Shown here piece after piece: positions 6,077 to 26,653 of a stretch of DNA of 64,000 bases. The position numbers and the translations under genes are program-made. Below the pieces are notes generated by a model, which saw nothing but the letters and a program-made list of their open reading frames with translations, searched no databases and was not told where the DNA came from. The DNA comes from Planctomycetota bacterium (lineage in GTDB: Bacteria; Planctomycetota; GCA-002687715), in NCBI GenBank assembly GCA_009691765.1, contig SIAO01000006.1, positions 1 to 64,000 on the forward strand, read 5' to 3'. Numbering within the stretch: the first letter of the stretch is position 1; every line of letters begins with the position of its first letter.

Positions 6077-6285
6077 GGGAGCTTTCTACCAACCCACAGC
6101 CTCTTGGCGCAGCACCGCGGGTCAAGAGGAGCTGCCACAGGTGTTTTGTGGCTGGTTTTCTCATATGGGCTGCAGCTTTACCCCCTTGGCGCCGCCTTGA
6201 TCCGCCCTGTGTTTCTTCAGGCCGGGATGGAGCGTTGGATGCGAGGGGTGGTATAAATGGGCGCCCTTTGGGCAGGAGATACCCC

Positions 6286-6603
6286 ATGCGTTTTGCCATT
6301 CTCGCGCTCGCCCTGAGCCTCGTCGTTATACCGGCGATGTTCGCGGCGTCCGGCTCTGCGGTGCCGACCGCAGATGATCCGGTTGTGTTCTTGGTCGGTG
6401 TTTCTGGGATGACTTGAGCAGGGAGCTGCACAGCCAAGGTCCGTGCGACCTTGGGAGCGCTCGCTGGTGTCGAGAAGGTGGAAGTGGACTTCAAAGCGAA
6501 GGTCGCTTCCGTCACCATGAAGACCGGTTCCCTCACCAAAGAAGACGCCGAGAAGGCACTGAAGTCCAAGGGCTTCGGGCTCTCCAGCTTCGCGAAGAAG
6601 TAA
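6286..6603 (+). CDS. Predicted exported selenoprotein, HMA (MerP-like) metal-binding domain, Sec44
   Basis: A 105-residue protein with a signal peptide (residues 1-20) and one heavy-metal-associated ferredoxin-like domain. An in-frame TGA at 6415-6417 lies in the metal-binding loop, giving GMT-U-AGS-C-TAKV. In HMA proteins this first position is Cys (GMTCxxC or GMTCxxxC). The domain continues in frame after it (LAGVEKVEVDFKAKVASV) to the TAA at 6601. A perfect 8-bp hairpin sits 16 nt after the TGA. GGAG in 'caggagat' (6274-6280) is a good ribosome-binding site for the ATG at 6286, and a strong Rho-independent terminator follows at 6625. Sec-containing MerP-like proteins are known from earlier selenoproteome surveys. 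The role may be metal or metalloid binding, or thiol redox; the metal is unknown. Confidence 0.85.
6434..6454 (+). promoter_or_regulatory. Candidate bacterial SECIS hairpin in the HMA selenoprotein gene
   Basis: CCAAGGTC (6434-6441) pairs perfectly with GACCTTGG (6447-6454) around the loop CGTGC. The stem begins 16 nt after the UGA and the apical loop 24 nt after it. G is the second base of the loop. This matches the general layout of bacterial SECIS elements that recruit SelB. An eight-base perfect inverted repeat at this exact place inside coding sequence is unlikely by chance. Confidence 0.7.
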
Positions 6604-6624: not shown

Positions 6625-6663
6625 CGAGGCTCCGCTCCACGAGCGGGGCCTTGGTTCGTTTTT
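6625..6663 (+). terminator. Rho-independent terminator after the HMA selenoprotein gene
   Basis: A 13-bp stem, including CCGCTC pairing with GAGCGG and extended by GAGGC/GCCTT with two or three G-T wobbles, closes on a CAC loop (6638-6640). It is followed by a T-rich tail ending in TTTTT (6659-6663). It lies 21 nt after the stop codon and separates this gene from tatD. Confidence 0.7.
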
Positions 6664-26087: not shown

Positions 26088-26142
26088 GGGGGAAAAAGGA
26101 AGAGCGGGTCATGCGTTGCCACACGACCCGCTCCCAAGGATG

Positions 26143-26229
26143 CGGAGAGGGAGGGATTCGAACCCTCGATACGGTTACCCGTATACACGCTTTCCAAGCG
26201 AGCTCCTTAAGCCACTCGGACACCTCTCC
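26143..26229 (-). tRNA. tRNA-Ser(GGA)
   Basis: An 87-nt class II tRNA read on the minus strand. The acceptor stem is GGAGAGG/CCTCTCC, the anticodon loop is TTGGAAA with anticodon GGA (reads UCC/UCU), and the variable arm is TATACGG/CCGTATC. The T loop GGTTCGAATCC is present. The discriminator is G and CCA is not encoded. Confidence 0.96.
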
Positions 26230-26271
26230 CAGGAATTTTTGGGAACCGGACGCGAATCGCTTTGGTTCCAG

Positions 26272-26358
26272 CGGAGAGGCAGGGATTCGAACCCTGGATA
26301 CCCGTGAGGGTATACCGGTTTTCGAAACCGGCCCGTTCGACCACTCCGGCACCTCTCC
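26272..26358 (-). tRNA. tRNA-Ser(CGA)
   Basis: A second 87-nt class II tRNA in tandem with the first. The acceptor stem is GGAGAGG/CCTCTCC, the anticodon stem-loop is CCGGTTTCGAAAACCGG with anticodon CGA (reads UCG), the variable arm is long (TACCC/GGGTA) and the T loop is GGTTCGAATCC. CCA is not encoded. Both are serine tRNAs; neither has the UCA anticodon needed for tRNA-Sec. Confidence 0.96.
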
Positions 26359-26514: not shown

Positions 26515-26653
26515 GGAGGCTCGGAACCACCGCCCGGTCGTGTCCCATGCAACGGGCAACCGCAAATCAGGTCAGGCCAGGAATGGAGCAGCCTCCCGCG
26601 GATCTGCCCGTGTGTCGTGGAGCAGCATGATCGGACGGTGGTTCGGGGCCTCC
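26515..26653 (+). ncRNA. ffs: Bacterial SRP RNA (4.5S-type)
   Basis: About 139 nt. The ends GGAGGCTCGGAACCACCG (26515-26532) and CGGTGGTTCGGGGCCTCC (26636-26653) pair as a long terminal helix. The domain IV motif GGTCAGGCCAGGAATGG, then AGCAGCC (26570-26593), carries the GGAA tetraloop and the symmetric loop bound by Ffh. It lies directly upstream of dnaX, a common place for this gene. Exact ends are approximate. Confidence 0.9.

Follow-up and report, generated by a model that had tools for sequence, protein, structure and literature searches.

MerP, among the nearest catalogued relatives of the protein described here, is an exported protein made of a single HMA domain; it binds through a CxxC motif and belongs to the mer operon. 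The CopZ/Atx1 copper chaperones share the fold but are cytosolic CxxC proteins without selenocysteine (Sec). Sec-containing proteins of these kinds have also been catalogued: Table 2 of the GOS survey of 2008 has a predicted MerP selenoprotein with two sequences (PMC2398784), and the entries of a 2026 review include NF041115, for UxxU metal binding, as well as a MerT selenoprotein (PMC13188914). Known Sec sites are mostly thought to be redox-active (PMC9312934).

The protein described here is encoded in a 64,000-nucleotide stretch of planctomycete DNA (the window). A sequence-only reading had proposed an exported HMA protein with an in-frame TGA, read as Sec, followed by an 8 bp hairpin stem. 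Re-reading the window and translating with Sec returned the same coordinates for gene, TGA and stem. The features of the locus are:

6286–6603, + strand: Sec-HMA gene, encoding 105 residues once the TGA is translated as Sec; ATG at 6286, TAA at 6601–6603
6274–6278, + strand: Shine-Dalgarno-like AGGAG ribosome site, 7 nt 5' of the ATG, read directly
6286–6345, + strand: probable signal peptide, residues 1–20 (MRFAILALALSLVVIPAMFA), a hydrophobic N-terminus judged by eye
6400–6576, + strand: HMA domain, residues 39–97 (Pfam PF00403, E 4.8e-11)
6415–6417, + strand: in-frame TGA, Sec44, first ligand position, in the loop that joins strand 1 to helix 1
6427–6429, + strand: Cys48 codon, second UxxxC ligand position, at the start of helix 1
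6434–6454, + strand: SECIS-like hairpin within the coding sequence, 8 bp stem, loop CGTGC
6625–6653, + strand: terminator-like hairpin followed by a T-run, upstream of tatD

Domain, fold and ligand spacing

Membership of the HMA family is supported by both score and fold. The PF00403 match reaches 43.3 bits (gathering cut-off 24.8), bearing out the domain named by the sequence-only reading, and translation of the TGA as Sec gives GMT-U-AGSC. AlphaFold2, run on the window protein and 21 relatives with Sec44 modelled as Cys, and with an alignment drawn from the window protein and related loci only (mostly CxxC proteins), predicts a beta-alpha-beta-beta-alpha-beta HMA fold with a pLDDT of about 92 over the domain. 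In the model, Sec44 lies in the loop before the helix of residues 47–57 and Cys48 at the start of that helix. Residues 1–20 are the low-confidence part; signal peptides or lipoboxes are present in homologues, in keeping with the export first read from the hydrophobic N-terminus. Foldseek matches ATP7B, PacS, CopZ, Atx1 and MerP, and sequence profiles match the same set; the HMA relatives of solved structure are metal-transport proteins. The terminator-like hairpin before tatD suggests that the gene is transcribed singly.

The window protein departs from the usual GMxCxxC spacing: its UxxxC motif is one residue longer. The sequence-only reading had pointed out this difference correctly, but it is not peculiar to the gene, since the three-residue spacing is common to the whole family. 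A profile (A1) built from 18 relatives and searched in 392 planctomycete genomes gave an HMA match in 229, many of them to ordinary CxxC proteins. Reading of the loci yielded 51 Sec domains whose ligands are separated by three residues, in at least 44 planctomycete genomes, each with the TGA kept. Their motif is mostly UxxxC, with UxxxU in several families; in alignment A1 the second ligand position is always Cys or Sec, and at one further locus (L010, genome G014) it is non-Cys (GVTUSSNKK). Cys forms with the same spacing, CxxxC, occur in G072, G184, G116 and the g106 genomes, ruling out three-residue spacing as a Sec-only trait.

The TGA codon and its hairpin

The window's genome (G000; 2.58 Mb, 90% complete) encodes the Sec machinery. 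The sel genes that the sequence-only reading had said to look for were all found: selA (C1:12888–14228) with tRNA-Sec directly 3' of it (C1:14295–14388, 78 bits), selB (C19; 319.6 bits, above cut-off) and selD (C23; 364 bits, with an in-frame TGA of its own). Across the tabulated Sec-HMA genomes, tRNA-Sec scores above cut-off in all except the drafts G040 and G073.

The codon itself is conserved. The genus has two other genomes, whose orthologues, at 76% and 68% identity, carry TGA at the same position, and purifying selection acts on either side of it (downstream pN 0.10–0.16 vs pS 0.35–0.61). Further afield, Sec exchanges with Cys at the residue 44 position. In genus g124, the motif is GMTUGAGC in G322 and G144 and GMTCGAGC in G184, within lipoproteins that are otherwise near-identical; the exchange of TGA for TGT, seen on comparing L084 with L097 and L100, gives a natural Sec/Cys pair. 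The G184 Cys copy, in which the hairpin is intact, seems from its sequence to have lost Sec recently. With the motif columns left out, a tree of 90 domains needs 13 Sec/Cys changes, a count from a short domain with many forks open. Several genes near the Sec-HMA gene, among them tatD and an S9-type peptidase-like gene, are common to G000, G002 and G003, the last being more distant, and the gene therefore looks old within its family.

The stem downstream of the TGA, CCAAGGTC/GACCTTGG at 6434–6441/6447–6454, pairs perfectly, with a TGA-to-loop distance of 24 nt and G at the second loop position. Its folding energy is low against dinucleotide shuffles (MFE z −2.40) and against synonymous-codon shuffles (p = 0.02). 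The same holds across the family: 54 Sec forms average −10.1 kcal/mol, vs −6.2 kcal/mol after synonymous-codon reshuffling (mean z −1.63; 43% at p < 0.05), while CxxC homologues show no such excess (mean z −0.08; 0/31 at p < 0.05 in the same kind of shuffle). In the commonest register, covariation is 0.354, vs 0.232 in shuffled and 0.07–0.19 in slid versions; this exceeds all 500 shuffles, which are lenient owing to related rows, and all slid versions, which are less so. A single conserved register was rejected: among the 20 of 51 rows listed, stems centre at several places, so single-register covariation understates the pairing, and in several members the protein motif appears to have stayed while the RNA stem moved. 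Energy and covariation thus support a selected structure at the place where the stem was first noticed.

Two readings would do away with Sec altogether. The TGA could be a true stop, leaving a pseudogene or a 43-residue peptide, and other genes of the window do use TGA as an ordinary stop; but the frame is conserved, with purifying selection downstream, the codon is kept over 44 genomes, and the Sec machinery, SECIS covariation and Cys swap all speak against a stop, which makes this reading highly improbable. Reassignment of TGA to Trp or Gly in the lineage, which has the open frame in its favour and nothing further, is more improbable still: TGA terminates 6 of the 8 neighbouring genes checked in the window and is therefore not generally recoded, the G001 orthologue itself stops at TGA, and homologues have Cys at the Sec position. 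Given the Sec machinery, the kept TGA, the TGA/TGT exchange and the strength and covariation of the hairpin, we are nearly certain that the gene encodes a selenoprotein; every test run supports that status, with Sec insertion itself following by implication.

Surroundings of the gene and of its relatives

In the window, the Sec-HMA gene is flanked by a divergent gene and by tatD, with no metal gene beside it. Elsewhere in the window, the gene for a bacterial small SRP RNA lies close to a pair of tRNA-Ser genes (26536–26635 and 26142–26358). MerT was absent from genomes G000–G011, and no MerA scored above cut-off in 40 genomes, although MerA-like hits were obtained below it. A classical mer system in G000 was rejected on these grounds (no MerT; MerA-like proteins below cut-off; genome 90% complete), as was transfer of function from the gene neighbourhood, the neighbours being housekeeping genes that differ between families.

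Some relatives have more telling surroundings. In both G012 and G304, MerT is fused to a C-terminal, MerP-like UxxxC domain (GMTUPQSC in each), with an iron-sulfur CopZ-type domain between the two in G304. The adjacent gene in both genomes encodes a lipoprotein in which a UxxU HMA domain is fused to a thioredoxin domain. The G304 locus is flanked by a CsoR-type repressor, resembling the copper-sensing RicR, and by a MerR-type regulator. Family f24 has a metal-type MerR gene near HMA genes (TIGR02051, 130 bits, below the cut-off of 150.85).

Several further candidates were seen along the way. The f24 cluster (L110, L105, L103) combines MerR, HMA proteins with CxxC and UxxU, and a SAHETMFGLGP protein that has no Pfam or NCBIfam match. 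UxxU HMA-thioredoxin-like lipoproteins are found at L143:6149–6931 (+), L142:5295–5948 (−) and L141:4067–4879 (−). The HMA-thioredoxin lipoprotein of G032 has the thioredoxin site HGPGUAPC, giving three candidate Sec residues in one protein. At L141:9886–10950 (+), on the G012 contig of the MerT fusion, a protein with a glutaredoxin-like start (HTUGAC) has an in-frame TGA. G000 encodes a second exported protein on the reverse strand of L122 (G000:C25:58701–68928; HMA match at G000:C25:63701–63928), with two degenerate HMA domains, GGGUGAA and GVGUAETC, each with an in-frame TGA and with hairpins of loop CGTGA downstream.

Function and comparison with known systems

The window protein is exported and probably uses a selenolate-thiolate pair to bind a soft metal, either Hg(II) or Cu(I). 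In the mechanism that we propose, (i) SelB bound to the hairpin at 6434–6454 would deliver tRNA-Sec at codon 44, the UGA, (ii) the mature protein would offer the Sec44 selenolate and Cys48 thiolate, one residue wider apart than in CxxC chaperones, and (iii) this pair would chelate extracytoplasmic Hg(II) or Cu(I), either trapping the metal or shuttling it. The context indicates that the protein of the window's genome would work alone, not within a mer operon. For UxxxC domains in general, soft-metal binding is supported by the MerT fusions of G012 and G304, the regulators beside the G304 fusion and the f24 MerR. For the window protein, with no metal neighbours and no MerT in G000, we infer it from domain kinship. 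Since the gene is isolated and G000 has neither MerT nor a clear MerA, the metal and the partner are likewise things we infer, and redox activity, which the sequence-only reading had also set beside soft-metal binding, is a live rival.

In that rival, the HMA fold would be the scaffold for a reversible Sec44-Cys48 selenenylsulfide, acting in the periplasm as a reductant of disulfides, peroxides or oxidised metal sites. It draws on the redox character ascribed to most known Sec sites (PMC9312934), on a loop one residue longer than the metal-binding CxxC, and on the thioredoxin fusions: some members adjoin thioredoxin-domain HMA proteins, as in G012, G304 and G032, the last with Sec in the thioredoxin site. 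The metal-transport roles of the solved HMA relatives, the MerT fusion with CsoR and MerR in G304, the MerR of f24, and the UxxxU motif of many members, which would suit a two-selenolate metal site, weigh against it, and we consider it rather unlikely. We give no better chance to a narrower form of soft-metal binding, in which an exported chaperone specific for copper would feed copper enzymes or export and have no mercury role. The top model scores are CopZ-type (NF047957), a RicR-like CsoR adjoins one MerT fusion, and a long frame on C28 of G000 encodes a CxxC-HMA protein; but every score falls under its curated cut-off, the window protein is exported while CopZ is cytosolic, and MerT is the only transporter domain seen fused to a UxxxC domain. 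The signals of metal identity are mixed, the MerT fusion pointing to Hg and the CsoR-type regulator to copper.

A wider version of the soft-metal reading can be put forward tentatively: the protein may belong to an uncatalogued, phylum-wide Planctomycetota family of exported metal chaperones, in which a genetically encoded chelate, selenolate-thiolate (UxxxC) or di-selenolate (UxxxU), would retain extracytoplasmic Hg(II), methylmercury or Cu(I); in the lineage of the window it would do so with no other mer components. If this is true, Sec at one or both chaperone ligands, together with natural Cys forms in the same genus, would make it possible to test directly how selenium alters metal affinity. 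The window protein reaches the cut-off of no NCBIfam model, and routine annotation would therefore be expected to truncate such genes at the TGA or to overlook them. The UxxxC motif is absent from the 2026 review (PMC13188914), and "UxxxC" with selenocysteine had no match in the searchable, non-subscription literature; we did not find the family among the annotation models and reviews searched, relative to which it is new.

Set beside the known systems, the window protein has the HMA-type domain and Sec at ligand positions of NF041115 (UxxU_metal_bind) but UxxxC in place of UxxU, and its 36.9 bits are far under the cut-off of 95. The MerT/CopZ fusion-like selenoproteins (NF045683) and MerTP (NF033556) recall the MerT-UxxxC fusions of G012 and G304, which score 61–66 (cut-off 375) and 60–68 (cut-off 180) on the two models; the window protein itself is an HMA domain alone, with no MerT domain, and reaches 33.1 bits on NF045683. 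CopZ/Atx1 chaperones resemble it in fold and general sequence, the score on NF047957 being 37.9 bits (cut-off 85). With MerP (TIGR02052) it shares export, a single HMA domain and the fold (1osd, 1afi), but it differs in its motif and surroundings and scores 31.4 bits against 92.55. The sequence-only reading's mention of MerP-like selenoproteins is borne out in part: the 2008 survey has a MerP entry, and UxxxC-MerT fusions exist in two other lineages; the likeness does not extend to mer neighbours or to the MerP cut-off. The MerP-type selenoprotein of that survey, known from its listing there (PMC2398784), may be kin to the protein described here.
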